Source: a virus. From it: a stretch of DNA of 64,000 nucleotides. Within the stretch, counting starts at the first letter, position 1. Every line of letters starts with the position of its first letter. The stretch covers positions 1 to 64,000 of IMG/VR virus record IMGVR_UViG_3300008107_000184. One strand, given 5' to 3'. Below are positions 20,493-26,252 of this stretch, piece after piece. The translations under genes were made by a program, and so were the position numbers. A model generated the notes under the pieces. It was not told where the DNA came from, did no database searches, and saw nothing but the letters and a program-made list of their open reading frames with translations.

Positions 20493-21854
20493 TTATGCCT
20501 TCTTGTTAATTCCAAAAGTGTCTCTGATTAATTTCATAGAAGTATATGAACGATTCGCATCAAAGTGATGACACAATTCCTTAATCATATATAGACCACT
20601 CGTTTCAGTGTCATATTCCTTCGCGTCCGATTGTGTAATCTTTGGAAAACGACATTCAACTACGTCTCCAGCTCTTAAGTTTGTATTGGATGGTACAATA
20701 ATACTCAAAGTTTGAGTAAACAGAATATTATATCTCATTAAAGATTGAGATTGATATAAAGTTTGGTCAGAGTTAATTTTTGAAGAAACTTCCAAACTAG
20801 TTGCAGGATTCAATGTCCCCACATCATAAACTGCAGTAATAATTCTAGTTGGTACATCTCCCAGTGTTAAATCAGAACCATCAGATAGTGGTGGTAGTTT
20901 AATTTGACTGCCAAGATTATTTGACTTTCCAGCATAATCTTCAAGTTTAAACTTTCCTTCTTCTGGTTTAGAGAATGAAAAATCTAGTGGATTGAAAAAC
21001 ATTCGATGACTTGCATAAGTGCCAAGTTTAAGTTTTTCAATTAGATTTTGATTTTTCTCGATGTAATAATTTAAAATTCTAAAATCATTATTAACCTTGT
21101 CGTCATTTTCATCATATGCCTGATTGACCTGATTATAAGTATAAACAACACGGGTATCGTTTATATCTGTTCTGGGTGGTTGTGTAATCAATCCATCAAC
21201 AGATCTAAATTGAAATCCATCCTGTGTTTGATAGAATAAAAATCCAGCAGTTGCACTTCCAGAAGATTGAGGAACTGCCTTTGATGCTAACCAGACTAAA
21301 AGAGTAAAGGGTTTCCTCAAATTCCCTATAAATCCATATTTGTTTGAGGATTTATCAATTGCACCTATTTTTTCGGTTTTAAGATAATTTGTTAAGATAT
21401 TTTCTACAGAATCACTAATTGCACTATCAACCTTAAACTTTTTACCAACTCGTACAGTTTCATTTGTGATTGCTTCTCTAGAAACCAAGTGAAGTGTAAA
21501 ACTTTCTTGATTGGTTTCCGAAATTACATCAGTGATACTTGAAACATATAAGTAATCTGCAACTCTTTTTGTAAAATCTAGTCCGGGATTTGTTGCAGAG
21601 TTGCCTGCAATTTTCATCGAAACTCTTTCACCACCTCTTAAAGGAAGACCATTATAAATTGACTGCCTTCCGGTGCCATTCTCTGCAACAATTGTGTTTC
21701 CGGTGTTGATGACTTTTATTTTTGCAGTAATAGTTGGAGAGAAAATATCCTCATAATAATCAATCGAAATAGCACCTGTTGAAATGTCAATCGTTCGACT
21801 ACGGTCGCTCGATTCTAAAATTAACTCTTCATATATGGACTTTTGAATTGACAT
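20493..21854 (-). CDS. Gp27-like baseplate hub protein
   Basis: 453 residues. Beta-rich with SIYEELILESSDRSRTIDIS at the start, ITAKIKVINTG near residue 40 and a C-terminal KELCHHFDANRSYTSMKLIR stretch; the order (hub, then gp5-like, then needle) and the size fit a gp27-type tail hub, the torus that joins the tail tube to gp5. The relation is by gene order and general fold features, not by a diagnostic motif. Shares a base with the stop of the upstream lytic tail protein. Confidence 0.6.
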   Translation of the reverse strand: MSIQKSIYEELILESSDRSRTIDISTGAISIDYYEDIFSPTITAKIKVINTGNTIVAENGTGRQSIYNGLPLRGGERVSMKIAGNSATNPGLDFTKRVADYLYVSSITDVISETNQESFTLHLVSREAITNETVRVGKKFKVDSAISDSVENILTNYLKTEKIGAIDKSSNKYGFIGNLRKPFTLLVWLASKAVPQSSGSATAGFLFYQTQDGFQFRSVDGLITQPPRTDINDTRVVYTYNQVNQAYDENDDKVNNDFRILNYYIEKNQNLIEKLKLGTYASHRMFFNPLDFSFSKPEEGKFKLEDYAGKSNNLGSQIKLPPLSDGSDLTLGDVPTRIITAVYDVGTLNPATSLEVSSKINSDQTLYQSQSLMRYNILFTQTLSIIVPSNTNLRAGDVVECRFPKITQSDAKEYDTETSGLYMIKELCHHFDANRSYTSMKLIRDTFGINKKA

Positions 21855-23755
21855 TATACGTATGCTAAATCTAAAAGAAGTTTATTCTTGATAAAGTTAT
21901 TTAACAGTTGAAAATCACTGATTGGAGACGGTGACATATCTCCACCACCAGATGCAGGAGTAATGATATTCTGCTGTTGTTGAGGTTCAATAATCATAAT
22001 GTCTTGACCCTTTCTTTCCGGTGTCAGTGATAATGGCACCATATTTGTTTGCTGTGGTGGTGCAGACATTTGCACTTCAGATGTTGTGTTAAATGGTGCA
22101 AATTTACTATATTTGTTTAGTGGGTCAAATTTACCAGTTAAAGTACCACCATTCCATCCAGTTCCAGTTTCCCAGTGCAAATGAGGTCCACTAGTTCTTC
22201 CACTCATTCCAACTTTGCCAATTACCTCACCTTTTTTAACTGGACCACTGCGTTTATATCCAGATTGCATATGCCCATATAAATGGTAAATTCCAAGATT
22301 ATCTCTCATTACTAAAAAGTTTCCCCATCCGTTTTCATAATCAGAATCAACAATAACACCATCAGAAACAGCCCTTAATGAGGTGCCTTGTTTAACTGCT
22401 AAATCGGATCCACCATGTGTTCGTGTCCCCCTTAATTCCCCATACCTACTTGTTATAATTGGGGTAATTCCTCTAGATGAAACTGCCTGTGTAGATTGTT
22501 GAGAAGTCTGAGCGGGACCTCCTTTTCTTTGCATATCTAGAGCATCTCCCGCTGTTTCAGGTGATATACTAGCTCTATTTCTACCAACACCAGCATATCT
22601 AGATTGCCCACGAACTCTACCAGCTTCAGGATATTCTAGACCAACTGAAGCAAATTCTCTTGCCAATTGTTGAATAGCTAATCTTCTATTATTTGATTTT
22701 CCATTAATATATGCACCAATTTCTGGTCTCTTTACATCAATCAAATAATCAAACAGTCTGTTTTGAGTTGCAGAATTAAACTTAGCATTTAATGGAATTT
22801 TAGTATGTCTAACCGCACCAGCTAAAGTGACGGGAATAAATTGATATTTACCAACTGCAAAAACTCTATTTTCTTTTTGAGCTTGCATAATTTCACCAAC
22901 TGTCATATCAGTTAGGTTTTTGCCAAAAATAGATTTTGCACCACCTGGAGTATCACCAGCATTTCCCCTATTAACTGAATTAAGTCCACCCTCACCCTTT
23001 ACAACTAAGGATGCCAATTCGGGATATTTTGTCCCACCCCCTGAAGTCACGGTGCCACCACTGTAAGGTGGTGGTTCTGCATAAGCACCTTCATTAGTTT
23101 GCTGTGTGCCCACTTCAGGAATCTTTTCTCCACTATACTTACCTTCTGTGAGTGGAGTTGTTAATAGTCCAAATGCTTCTTCAATTTGACTTGTAAGGTT
23201 TTCCATCGTAAAGTTCAAATCACTCATTGCAGTTTTGACACGGTTTGAAGTATCAAAGAAATCAAACTGCAATAGATTTTGACCAAGTGCTCCTAAAATA
23301 TTTCCAACATTAACAAACAATCTAATGGTGTTATTAAAAAATCCTGAAAGAATTTGACCTGCTTTTTGAATTCTTGCAACAAACTCTTTACCCATTGCAA
23401 TCCAAGTCGGAAGATTATTCATCAACCACCCAGCAGATAAGTATCCAATAAATCCTAAAATTCGATTAAAAAACCCCCCCACGCCTGCTGATTGAGTAAG
23501 TTGTTGAGGACCACCAAGACTAATAGCAACTCTTGGCGCTTCAAGTTCATCCTCAAGCATCATTCTTTTTTCATTTTCTTCTCTTCTTTTTCTAAAAAGA
23601 TTTGTCTGTGCAAATGATTCTCTTTTAACTTTAGTTCTTTTTAGAATAACCTGACCAATATTTTTTACAGAGCTTCGTGCTTCAGTGACTTTCTTTTGAG
23701 AATCACTTGCCGAAGTCGTAACTTTTTTTAAATTTAGAGGAGATGCTACTACCAT
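21854..23755 (-). CDS. Tail protein with muramidase-like and M23 peptidase domains
   Basis: 633 residues. N-terminus basic and coiled-coil, with a hydrophobic segment (about residues 100-120, GFIGYLSAGWLMNNLPTW). Residues about 246-405 form a muramidase-like domain (VVKGEGGLNSVNRGNAGDTP with a likely catalytic Glu near 255, and FAVGKYQFIP at 299-308). Residues about 430-540 are an M23 endopeptidase (LytM/lysostaphin fold): H447-x3-D451, HLYGH 491-495 and HLHWE 525-529, all zinc ligands present. So one virion protein can cut both glycan and peptide of peptidoglycan during DNA entry. It replaces the lysozyme absent from the gp5-like protein. Confidence 0.85.
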   Translation of the reverse strand: MVVASPLNLKKVTTSASDSQKKVTEARSSVKNIGQVILKRTKVKRESFAQTNLFRKRREENEKRMMLEDELEAPRVAISLGGPQQLTQSAGVGGFFNRILGFIGYLSAGWLMNNLPTWIAMGKEFVARIQKAGQILSGFFNNTIRLFVNVGNILGALGQNLLQFDFFDTSNRVKTAMSDLNFTMENLTSQIEEAFGLLTTPLTEGKYSGEKIPEVGTQQTNEGAYAEPPPYSGGTVTSGGGTKYPELASLVVKGEGGLNSVNRGNAGDTPGGAKSIFGKNLTDMTVGEIMQAQKENRVFAVGKYQFIPVTLAGAVRHTKIPLNAKFNSATQNRLFDYLIDVKRPEIGAYINGKSNNRRLAIQQLAREFASVGLEYPEAGRVRGQSRYAGVGRNRASISPETAGDALDMQRKGGPAQTSQQSTQAVSSRGITPIITSRYGELRGTRTHGGSDLAVKQGTSLRAVSDGVIVDSDYENGWGNFLVMRDNLGIYHLYGHMQSGYKRSGPVKKGEVIGKVGMSGRTSGPHLHWETGTGWNGGTLTGKFDPLNKYSKFAPFNTTSEVQMSAPPQQTNMVPLSLTPERKGQDIMIIEPQQQQNIITPASGGGDMSPSPISDFQLLNNFIKNKLLLDLAYV

Positions 23756-23756
23756 A

Positions 23757-25364
23757 TCACATCACCACATTATAATTCATTTGTGAATAAAGCACATAAA
23801 AATTATCAGTATTGGAAGATGGTATGAATGGCACATCAGTCAATGGTTCTTGTTGTGCTACCATTGTTTGTGTTCTATCTCTACCACCACCTGCCATAAT
23901 AATATTTGCCTTTGCTTCAGGTAATGTTCCAACAGGAGTAGTTGGTTTTGGTGGTGCCTGCATGTTTGCCGCTGGTTTTTCTTGAATCAATCCTTCGATA
24001 TTTAATGTTCCGTAAGGAGATGCTGTTTCTTGTGCTAAAGGTTGTGCTGGTGCCTGTAACATATTTGCAGTATCCACACTGAATTTCATTTCAGATGCTG
24101 GCGGCATTGCTGGTGTTTGTGGTTGTGATGGAGACACTTTTGCTGCTGTTGGTGTTGGTGTTGGCGCATTATCTTTTTTCTTACCCAAGAATGTTCCTTC
24201 AAAAGCACCATACTCTCTTGCAATGTCAACACCTAAAGCAGGAAGTCCGATAATTGGGACAGCAGATGCGTAGGACAACAATCCGCCCGTGATATCTCCT
24301 TTTGCAATTCTGTAAGTTCCAACTCCAAGTGCTATAGGAGCAAAAAGTTTAGAAGCAACATTTCCAGCTCCCCTTAAAACTCCTTGAGCACCTTTTCCAA
24401 TATTTCCAATTCCACCTAAAAACCTTCCCAAAGGTCCGCTTCTACTCAAAACTCTTCCACCACTTGTAGTAATGGGAGTCCTACCACCAGCACCTGTAAT
24501 TGCTCTTGCTGCCCCTCTACCAAGTCCAAGCAACCCACCAATTGCTGACCCTGCTAATCTAAAAGGTGCTAAAGCAATTCTAGCAACAAGTGCCCCCAAT
24601 CTCAATGTTAATCCAGTAATCGTTCTCATTAAGAGACCGAATCCTATTTTAACAGCAGCAAAAGCACCTATTGCATATAAAACATTCTTAATAACATTAT
24701 TCTTAATTTCTTCAAGTTTTTTACTATTTCCTTCAGTCAGTGCTTTTAAGGTTTCAATACCTTGATTTGTAAGCCATCCAAAGAATAATGTTGTCAGAGA
24801 CCCCATAATACGGTCAAACAAACTTGTAATGGTTTGTTGAAGTTTGAGTATTGGTCTTGCAAGTGCCGCTTGAATTCCTCTTTCAAGAGCACTTTCTTTA
24901 CCAAGACGAATTTTACGCTCTGCTAATCTTCTTTCTTGTTCTTGCTCTTGCTTGAGTTGATTTTGCTCAACAGCACTTTCTGCTTGCAATAATTTGGCAG
25001 TGTTTTGCACTCCCTGATTTAAGTCGGTGACTTGCACACGAATCACATCAAGACTCTGCTGAAGACCGCCAACTGTTTGTTGAGTTGTTTGAATGCTTAA
25101 GTCTTGTGCTCTATCAACTAAACTAACTTGAGGTCTAACTACAATTGCTGTGCCAGTAGTGGCGCCAGCACCGCCACCTCCTCCACCTACTCCAGCACTA
25201 CCTCCACCGCCAGAGACTACACGCCCACCAAAAACAGTTCTTGGGAGGGTTGTAATTCTACCTAAAGAAAATTTTTGAAGGGTAATTCTTTCTGTGCCAG
25301 TATAATACCCACCACCCGGTTTTTCACCTGTTTGTGCTCTTAAACCAGCTTCTGCCCTATCCAT
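23757..25364 (-). CDS. Tape-measure-like tail protein
   Basis: 535 residues. Gly-rich N-terminus, a long coiled coil (about residues 85-165, many Gln/Glu), then several hydrophobic segments (about residues 185-310) with small residues, and a Pro/Ala/Gln-rich C-terminus. This layout, and its place just after the gp26 and 57-residue chaperone frames, fits a tape measure (gp29-like) or hub protein. Its ATG overlaps the stop of the 57-residue frame by 8 bp (25357-25364). It shares a hydrophobic FxGWL motif with the next tail protein. Confidence 0.55.
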   Translation of the reverse strand: MDRAEAGLRAQTGEKPGGGYYTGTERITLQKFSLGRITTLPRTVFGGRVVSGGGGSAGVGGGGGGAGATTGTAIVVRPQVSLVDRAQDLSIQTTQQTVGGLQQSLDVIRVQVTDLNQGVQNTAKLLQAESAVEQNQLKQEQEQERRLAERKIRLGKESALERGIQAALARPILKLQQTITSLFDRIMGSLTTLFFGWLTNQGIETLKALTEGNSKKLEEIKNNVIKNVLYAIGAFAAVKIGFGLLMRTITGLTLRLGALVARIALAPFRLAGSAIGGLLGLGRGAARAITGAGGRTPITTSGGRVLSRSGPLGRFLGGIGNIGKGAQGVLRGAGNVASKLFAPIALGVGTYRIAKGDITGGLLSYASAVPIIGLPALGVDIAREYGAFEGTFLGKKKDNAPTPTPTAAKVSPSQPQTPAMPPASEMKFSVDTANMLQAPAQPLAQETASPYGTLNIEGLIQEKPAANMQAPPKPTTPVGTLPEAKANIIMAGGGRDRTQTMVAQQEPLTDVPFIPSSNTDNFYVLYSQMNYNVVM

Positions 25365-25530
25365 TCGCTTGATTCTTCAGGGTTTCCTCTTCAATATATT
25401 GTTGGAGAAGAGTAATATAAACCTCCCTTTCCCAAGGAATCATATTTTCCAACTCTGTTAATGAATATTTATGGTGCTGAATCAAGGCAAAGTTTGTCTT
25501 GTAGTATGATGCAAGGTCTTCGTGCATCAT
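25357..25530 (-). CDS. 57-aa gp26 partner (gp51-like / tail chaperone extension)
   Basis: MMHEDLASYYKTNFALIQHH then YSLTELENMIPWEREVYITL and a Glu-rich end; helical. A similar short protein follows gp26 in T4-like cyanophages. It begins three bases after the gp26 stop in the -1 frame. A slippery TTTTTTC sits just before that stop in the correct register, and a hairpin starts at this ATG (25506-25530), so it may be made mainly as a -1 frameshift extension of gp26, like lambda gpG-T. It may also start independently at 25530 or 25527. Confidence 0.75.
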   Translation of the reverse strand: MMHEDLASYYKTNFALIQHHKYSLTELENMIPWEREVYITLLQQYIEEETLKNQANG

Positions 25531-25545
25531 TCCTAGGCGAAAAAA
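25506..25545 (-). promoter_or_regulatory. Putative programmed -1 frameshift signal
   Basis: Slippery T TTT TTC (25539-25545) in the gp26 frame (AGT TTT TTC), an 8-nt spacer, then a perfect 8-bp stem ATGATGCA/TGCATCAT (25523-25530 with 25506-25513) with a 9-nt loop. A -1 slip reads straight into the 57-codon frame, skipping the gp26 TAG at 25533-25535. Confidence 0.7.
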
Positions 25546-26252
25546 CTTGTTAGACCCTCCAATACTACTTCACTTTCCACTTCAGTATTTGGATTTGTAA
25601 CTTTAATAGTATGAGAAAGTTTAGGCATTGTTTCAAAAAACTTTTCAATGTCTTTAAACTGTTGAGAAGTTAGTTGCTCAAGAAATTCCTTAAGTTCTTT
25701 TTTTGTTACATCAGAAGATGACCAAGACTCTTCTTCACTATAAATCTGCTCAATACAAGAGGTAATCATATCAAATGTTTCATCAACAGAAATTTCAGAT
25801 CCAGCAATAAAATTACTCTTGACAAATTCTTGCATTGATGGATATCTCATTCTCAAAGTTAAACTATCATCAAGTTTGATATCTCTCGAATGGTCTTCTC
25901 TAAACTCAACTTCAATATCATCTAGATTGATACTTACAGGAACTTGTGTATTTCCATCATCGGGACAAGTAATTAAAACATCAACGGTTTCACCAACAGA
26001 TTTTCCACGAATGTTGAGGAACAAATATTCAATATCAAAAGTTGCAAGTTGCTCAATCTTAATTCCACGAGTAACAATGCAATTGCCAATTACTGTTTTT
26101 ACTGCTTCAGCAATTTGCTTTGGGTCTTCACTTTCCATTGCAATGATTAAAACCTTTTCTTCCTTCACAAGAAATGGGCGATACTTGATACTTTTCTTTA
26201 GAGAAGGAATTTCCAACTCATAGGTCGGTGTTGAAATTTTTGGTAAAGGCAT
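25533..26252 (-). CDS. 26: Gp26-like baseplate hub assembly protein
   Basis: 239 residues, matching the T4_baseplate family of gp26-type hub assembly proteins: KYRPFLVKEEKVLIIAMESE near residue 24, CIVTRGIKIEQLATFDIEYL in the middle, and a C-terminal domain with LRMRYPSMQEFVKS. In cyanophages this gene lies upstream of the tail tape-measure genes, and by position and family it behaves like a tail assembly chaperone. It ends LTSFFA-stop at a slippery site leading into the 57-residue frame. CTAAATA lies 28 bases upstream of the ATG. Confidence 0.85.
   Translation of the reverse strand: MPLPKISTPTYELEIPSLKKSIKYRPFLVKEEKVLIIAMESEDPKQIAEAVKTVIGNCIVTRGIKIEQLATFDIEYLFLNIRGKSVGETVDVLITCPDDGNTQVPVSINLDDIEVEFREDHSRDIKLDDSLTLRMRYPSMQEFVKSNFIAGSEISVDETFDMITSCIEQIYSEEESWSSSDVTKKELKEFLEQLTSQQFKDIEKFFETMPKLSHTIKVTNPNTEVESEVVLEGLTSFFA

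Follow-up and report, generated by a model that had tools for sequence, protein, structure and literature searches.

In phage lambda, the tail assembly chaperone (TAC) comes in two forms, gpG and its -1 extension gpGT. Both attach to the tape measure protein, and gpGT contacts the tube protein through its T part, as set out in the part of a 2016 review that deals with them (PMC5009743). The same part describes low-level G/GT frameshifting as conserved among long-tailed phages "except T4". Here, we describe a T4-like locus in a 64,000-nucleotide stretch of viral DNA (IMG/VR record IMGVR_UViG_3300008107_000184, positions 1 to 64,000; the whole stretch is called the window below), in which a gp26-like gene very probably ends in a programmed -1 frameshift site that joins it to a gp51-like extension.

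The role of gp26 and gp51 as tail assembly chaperones was treated by Vladimirov, Gautam, and Davidson (2022, Virology 566:9-15), as represented in the citing statements of two later papers (PMC10885494, PMC12846349). According to the first, some T4-like phages carry a short gene together with a long fused gene in place of frameshifting (PMC10885494, citing Vladimirov 2022). The second states that poly-T slippery sites are known in the T4-like TAC-N genes (PMC12846349, citing Vladimirov 2022), and in its citing passage a further paper refers to the study solely for the role of the chaperone (PMC11131426). A literature search by title and start of abstract, with most subscription papers beyond its reach, returned no paper treating gp26/gp51 or frameshifting in T4-like phages or cyanophages, and none on a composite signal or a clade-specific hairpin in these phages. 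The abstract of the 2022 study is said to describe frameshifting as conserved in several T4-like groups. The principle of a frameshifted TAC is already published for T4-like phages, and any novelty of the present locus lies in its composite signal.

The slip signal at the end of gp26

The locus contains a short open reading frame (ORF) and an overlapping ORF in the -1 frame, directly upstream of a gene for a 535-aa protein. Its features are as follows.

25533..26252, minus strand: gp26-like putative tail assembly chaperone, short form (TAC-N), zero frame, 239 aa (PF12322, phrog_150, and a TAC-like N-terminal fold match).
25555..25560, minus strand: GGAGGG, Shine-Dalgarno-like, 10-15 nt upstream of the heptamer, a possible frameshift stimulator (window sequence and the GAG/GGG codon bias of relatives; moderate evidence).
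25539..25545, minus strand: slippery heptamer T TTT TTC (in-register T TTT TTN in nearly all junctions).
25533..25535, minus strand: zero-frame stop TAG, one sense codon past the heptamer (same distance in the closest junctions).
25506..25530, minus strand: stem-loop of 8 bp with a 9-nt loop, arms 25523-25530 and 25506-25513 (fold z score, covariation, and excess stability in close relatives).
25357..25539, minus strand: -1 frame from the heptamer to its stop, a predicted gp51-like TAC-C extension of 60 residues past the slip site (phrog_634, phrog_150, and conservation from the first codon in relatives).
25357-25530, minus strand: 57-aa ORF in the -1 frame relative to gp26 (ORF list).
23757..25364, minus strand: 535-aa tape-measure-like protein, whose gene overlaps the 3' end of the -1 frame (by position; PHROG matches of unknown function).

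The 3' end of gp26 reads AGT TTT TTC GCC TAG. After a -1 slip the reading would become TTT TTT CGC CTA GGA ATG ATG, and the product would be a fusion of 298 residues with the junction ...LTSFFRLGMMHED.... The ATGATGCA/TGCATCAT stem starts 8 nt 3' of the heptamer. The 66-nt stretch that contains it folds at -13.4 kcal/mol (z -3.08), and 2 of 200 shuffled sequences folded equally well. An earlier sequence-only reading of this stretch had proposed a T TTT TTC heptamer in the correct register at the end of gp26, an 8-bp hairpin with a 9-nt loop 8 nt beyond it, and a fusion of about 298 residues running through CGC CTA GGA into the ATG ATG frame. The heptamer and the hairpin are present as described, and translation yields the fusion.

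The heptamer is not a rare word. TTTTTTC occurs 29 times in the window against 32.2 expected, and rarity was therefore rejected as an argument for it. What goes beyond chance is the position of the heptamer and its conservation.

Conservation of the heptamer

Conservation was assessed in 183 gp26 junctions, made up of the window, 80 IMG/VR loci, S-SRM01, 10 annotated phage records, and 91 further loci, these last being the ones among 96 whose gp26 frame reaches a stop. The set includes repeats of one phage (HTVC008M, for example, is both L083 and L094), and 138 of its junctions are distinct. The contig ends before the gp26 stop in L102, L144, L165, L166, and L181, which were left out along with L198, a partial match only; the two-gene cases, T4 and the Slopekvirus L195, were not counted as junctions. 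A scan that used the gp26 of Vibrio phage D484 as the query found no loci.

T TTT TTN lies in the slippery register near the stop in 179 of the 183 junctions, as TTTTTTC in 150, TTTTTTT in 28, and TTTTTTG in one. The sequence-only reading had named a heptamer or -1 register unconserved in relatives as one result that would speak against a frameshift, and conservation is what the junctions display. A further five named phages, P-RSM4, P-SSM3, S-RIM8, AS-yj, and VH7D, have TTTTTTC in register. Among the 82 closest junctions the stop falls exactly one codon past the heptamer in every case, and in none of these genes does a second TTTTTTC occur within 690 nt upstream of the site. In six junctions (L109, L135, L154, L155, L157, and L169) the zero-frame stop comes eight codons past the heptamer, giving the short form a longer tail.

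Codon choice at the site is strict. Among 104 columns of the 82 closest genes with a conserved residue encoded by degenerate codons, a single codon is used in all 82 only at the two phenylalanine columns of the heptamer, TTT at the first and TTC at the second. Elsewhere in these genes phenylalanine is encoded by TTT 679 times and by TTC 209 times (24% TTC), and the other 10 conserved phenylalanine columns all vary in codon. The codon before the pair is AGT, TCT, GCT, AAT, or GAT, specifying four amino acids and always ending in T. Because TTT TTC and the preceding T are invariant despite variation of the other phenylalanine codons, the heptamer is not a mere protein constraint, and neither chance nor such a constraint accounts for it.

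The downstream hairpin

In relatives the stem extends to the equivalent of 25503-25533. It was aligned in 61 of the 82 close junctions (51 distinct rows), and 20 of the remaining 21 were aligned but not counted. Across the 61 rows the 11-pair stem is 92.5% paired, compared with 87.7% in shuffles and 26-45% when the pairing is slid along the alignment, and 24 cells are changed on both sides of the stem against 7.9 in shuffles. The main carrier of covariation is the pair of columns 21 and 35, which is UA in 26, GC in 14, and AU in 7 of the 51 distinct rows. Its 5' base mostly occupies the wobble position of an alanine codon, and changes in the 3' partner exchange Glu, Ala, and Val, so the silent base follows the amino-acid change. 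On the gp26 tree the fewest changes needed are 12 for each side of this pair and 13 for the pair itself; no comparison on its well-supported branches is contrary, and these comparisons are too few for significance.

Folding energy gives a similar picture for the close relatives. The median of 74 distinct close junctions is -12.8 kcal/mol against -4.3 in control windows from gp26, and 86% of them lie at or below the 5th percentile of the controls. By stem type, and with the cut-offs used here, 58 of the 82 closest junctions fit the 8-bp stem (at least 7 of 8 pairs), 12 have a GGTCC stem, 2 a CCCTC stem, and 10 none. Eight junctions folded singly against shuffles gave z scores of -3.08 (the window), -3.67, -0.97, -2.98, -0.85, -3.74, -2.03, and -0.50, which are not uniformly striking.

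Several points weigh on the other side. The percentage paired is biased, the rows having been selected mostly by stem fit. Two of five covariation measures are unexceptional: pairs changed on both sides number 2, matched by 48 of 500 shuffles, and further pair types number 7, matched by 356 of 500. Well-supported branches allow only 4 independent comparisons for the GC state, of which 3.9 agree (median p 0.125); for UA there are likewise 4, with 3.0 in agreement, and for AU there is 1 (0.9). Finally, 53 distinct distant junctions show no excess structure, their median equaling that of the controls with 9% at or below the 5th percentile (p=0.11).

The hairpin was accordingly rejected as a general T4-like feature, the excess of structure being confined to close relatives. 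The heptamer is general and the hairpin is limited to one cyanophage-like clade. A check of stem conservation had been suggested along with the original hairpin, and its outcome is divided, with a covarying stem found in the close relatives and not in the T4-like superfamily as a whole. In frameshift signals of the dnaX type the stem usually follows the heptamer by a few nt. A stem-loop shortly 3' of the heptamer is present in the close relatives, at 8 nt in the window, and not in the distant ones.

The upstream Shine-Dalgarno-like element

The GGAGGG that precedes the heptamer in the window encodes a conserved Glu-Gly. In 78 distinct close junctions the glutamate at this site is GAG in 64, against 437 of 1610 glutamates elsewhere, and the glycine is GGG in 25, against 18 of 409 elsewhere; these counts are not independent by descent. 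Among 13 conserved glutamate columns this one has the highest GAG share (0.82); a second column, at 0.74, draws level with it when 16 representatives are used (0.81 and 0.80). For GGG, the share of 0.32 is the highest of four glycine columns, the others reaching at most 0.07. Glu-Gly is found at the site in 37 of 63 distinct distant junctions, 31 of these 37 using GAG, and the glycine is GGG in 7 of 58 distant junctions against 26 of 528 elsewhere. An upstream Shine-Dalgarno element stands about 10 nt before the heptamer in dnaX-type signals. Codon choice gives moderate support to the upstream GAGGG as a favoured sequence and a possible stimulator of this kind.

Entry into the -1 frame

In relatives the -1 frame is conserved from its first codon, at the slip site, and it extends at least 122 nt beyond the stop in 81 of the 82 closest junctions; in the other, L024, it ends at 41 with its contig. 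Start codons were counted in 177 junctions (137 distinct), with L024 and L053 excluded for their truncated -1 frames.

The alternative that survives best holds that there are two separate genes, with gp26 ending at TAG and the 57-aa protein made by termination and reinitiation at the nearby ATG ATG. The window agrees with this in having GGAATGATG immediately past the stop, and an ATG occurs within the first five codons of the -1 frame in 94 of the 177 junctions (the window and 93 others). The ORF is also annotated as a separate gene in records, and two heptamer-less Vibrio phages have a stop/start overlap. Set against these are the 83 junctions with no ATG within the first five codons, of which 71 (51 of the 137 distinct) have no ATG, GTG, or TTG there. 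The first ATG stands at codon 18 or 19 of the -1 frame in 62 of the 177, and a conserved peptide such as RLALSHESLENHF precedes it. Reinitiation also leaves the invariant TTT TTC and the preceding T unaccounted for. Since 71 junctions lack all three start codons in this interval, frameshifting is the likeliest way in which many relatives would reach the -1 frame. In the window and the 93 other early-ATG junctions sequence alone leaves room for reinitiation, which we consider improbable as an explanation of the locus.

Transcriptional slippage, in which RNA polymerase copies the T run with too many or too few bases and so produces mixed mRNAs that read into the -1 frame, appears more improbable still. 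The site is a T run, and in 28 of the 179 it is seven T long. Such slippage usually requires longer runs, and in 150 of the 179 the run is six T closed by C; a ribosomal slip better suits a register that is fixed and an RNA hairpin that covaries 8 nt past the site. A Phe-Phe requirement of the protein combined with codon bias, beside a coincidental adjacent frame, is scarcely credible and was rejected: the pair is invariant in an alignment of 57 gp26 sequences and TTT is the preferred codon, but the codon in the A site is TTC, the less used one, in all 82, the other 10 conserved phenylalanine columns vary, and the -1 frame is a conserved gp51-like domain.

The junctions that lack the heptamer speak against frameshifting at this site in every relative. 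They number four of the 183, L087, L091, L095, and L188. L087 and L091 are the 157-kb Vibrio phages D504 and K475, whose gp26 stop and a start codon share bases in TAATG. In L095 the frame is closed early, by a stop far upstream of the site. The T run of the site is altered in L188, a Stenotrophomonas phage contig of 159,514 bases, and is intact in L187, which is 98% identical; the frame is accordingly read differently in L188, and sequencing error and mutation cannot be told apart here. Three Ackermannviridae (S118, Ds16CZ, and KP6F1) also lack the heptamer and keep the -1 frame, which in S118 and KP6F1 has no ATG at its beginning either. A conserved -1 frame with no tandem slippery heptamer at the gp26 end is thus seen in L189 (about 2300-2475), L190, and L191 of the Ackermannviridae and in the two Vibrio phages. 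Entry by a single-tRNA slip at T TTY or at a rare start codon are guesses for these phages.

Taken together, the programmed -1 frameshift at the end of gp26 is very likely real, judging from comparison of the junctions. The signal, its conservation, the covariation of the stem in one clade, the coding of the -1 frame, and the one-gene counterpart in T4 (described below) are established.

The proteins of the locus

The gp26 protein belongs to PF12322 (E=4e-76, 255.9 bits against a curated cut-off of 24.5) and matches phrog_150 (E=1e-83). Both T4 gp26 and T4 gp51 are also members of PF12322. The extension matches phrog_634, labeled "baseplate hub assembly catalyst" (E=1e-27), and positions 238-278 of the 282 in phrog_150. 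T4 gp51 covers positions 13-280 of this same profile and the match of T4 gp26 stops at 235; by these matches, T4 gp51 is a gp26-like part plus the extension in one gene. Profiles were needed to see this, as BLASTP of gp26 against T4 gp51 gave nothing useful (E=0.18). In T4 gp26 the Phe-Phe pair is encoded as TTC TTT, which is not slippery, with a separate gene 51 alongside, and T4, in which the long form comes from a gene of its own, therefore lacks the slip site. At the level of sequence, the relatives and the one-gene fusion of T4 gp51 both agree with a -1 frame that encodes a conserved C-terminal domain and is translated as part of a fusion.

An AlphaFold2 model of gp26 has a mean pLDDT of 88. 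The best of 894 realigned chains were 3fgx (Z 8.0), the HK97 tail assembly chaperone 2ob9 (Z 7.9), and 3klu (Z 7.3), followed by the next at 5.1; we take 3fgx and 3klu to be tail assembly chaperones as well. All three alignments lie within gp26 residues 1-96, with an rmsd of 4.0-4.3 over 84-86 residues. Two points count against this assignment: a Foldseek search with the model gave no significant E-value (2ob9 at E=1.6), and the aligner itself cautions that a Z below about 8 may reflect a common arrangement. A role for gp26 as a tail assembly chaperone is nonetheless probable. The sequence-only reading had placed cyanophage gp26/gp51 in the tail assembly chaperone scheme, and the structure ranking supports that placement; as a new idea it was anticipated by Vladimirov 2022.

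The 535-aa protein matches phrog_35029 and phrog_3405, both of unknown function, and has no Pfam match; BLASTP against T4 gp29 gave nothing convincing (best E=0.053). In the corresponding region of HTVC008M a 687-aa protein matches tape measure PHROGs. By its position the 535-aa protein is plausibly the tape measure. The genes at 21854-23755 and 23757-25364 (both minus strand) seem to share similarity along part of their length (BLASTP E=5e-5 over 93 query residues) and both match phrog_3405, and they are possibly two tandem tape-measure-like proteins. The second of these two genes that follow the frameshift locus carries an M23 peptidase domain.

Proposed mechanism and its consequences

In the proposed mechanism, the gp26 gene would encode a tail assembly chaperone in two forms. 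The majority of ribosomes would terminate at TAG and yield a short form of 239 residues, TAC-N. A smaller share, while T TTT TTC lies in the P and A sites with Phe-tRNA bound in each, would move back by one base, pair anew with TTT TTT, and continue in the -1 frame to give the 298-residue long form, TAC-NC, with its gp51-like C-terminal extension. The downstream stem-loop would raise the slip rate, as may pairing of GGAGGG with 16S rRNA. If lambda G/GT is a guide, the tape measure protein would be coated by the short form, and recruitment of the tail tube protein would fall to the long form. What is inferred is that ribosomes slip, how often they do so, what each stimulator contributes, and that the products bind tape measure and tube.

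A joint reading of the junctions can be offered tentatively, with somewhat more doubt than confidence. GAGGG and T TTT TTN might be an old slip element common to T4-like phages of sea and soil, with a covarying hairpin joining it in the cyanophage lineage in two or more architectures, among them a long ATGGCNCA-type stem and a short GGTCC-ATAT-GGACC stem. The Ackermannviridae and related Vibrio phages might keep the -1 frame with a degenerate site, perhaps through a single-tRNA slip at T TTY. If this holds, the locus is a natural series for the gain and loss of stimulators with the fusion retained.

Frameshifting here would place cyanophage-like phages in the tail-length control scheme of lambda, and the junctions would offer an extensive natural data set on which to test what stimulators a bacterial frameshift site needs. 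The gp51 genes annotated in some records would be fragments of a fusion, at least two of them starting at a downstream ATG that cuts conserved residues. The annotated gp51 genes of HTVC008M (L083, 3753-3890) and S-RIM8 (L194, 2262-2399) have such a late ATG start and omit conserved residues.

Comparison with known systems

In the Vandenendeviridae phage Adele the TAC-N gene leads into a -1 frame that bears a hypothetical-protein annotation, and a poly-T motif is conserved (PMC12846349). It differs from the window in its motif, GTTTTT, and in belonging to another phage family, and the section of that paper that covers the gene does not mention a hairpin (PMC12846349). In the E. coli dnaX signal, as outlined in the part of the source that concerns it, an internal Shine-Dalgarno sequence is combined with a slippery site and a downstream structure (PMC5600365), and the window has GGAGGG, T TTT TTC, and a stem. 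The dnaX signal has another heptamer in another gene, and stimulator activity in the window is suggested by codon choice.

T4 resembles the window in that its gp26 is a PF12322 protein and the 57-aa frame matches the C-terminus of its gp51. T4 uses two separate genes, and its gp26 ends without a slippery site, whereas in the window one gene would serve for both forms. The likeness to lambda G/GT is in layout: the gene for a short protein, with an extension in the -1 frame, lies ahead of a tape-measure-like gene. The lambda G/GT heptamer is G GGA AAG, and that of the window is T TTT TTC. The lambda analogy drawn in the sequence-only reading is supported by the gene order, by the one-gene fusion of T4 gp51, by -1 frames that have no start codon, and by the TAC structures that ranked first.

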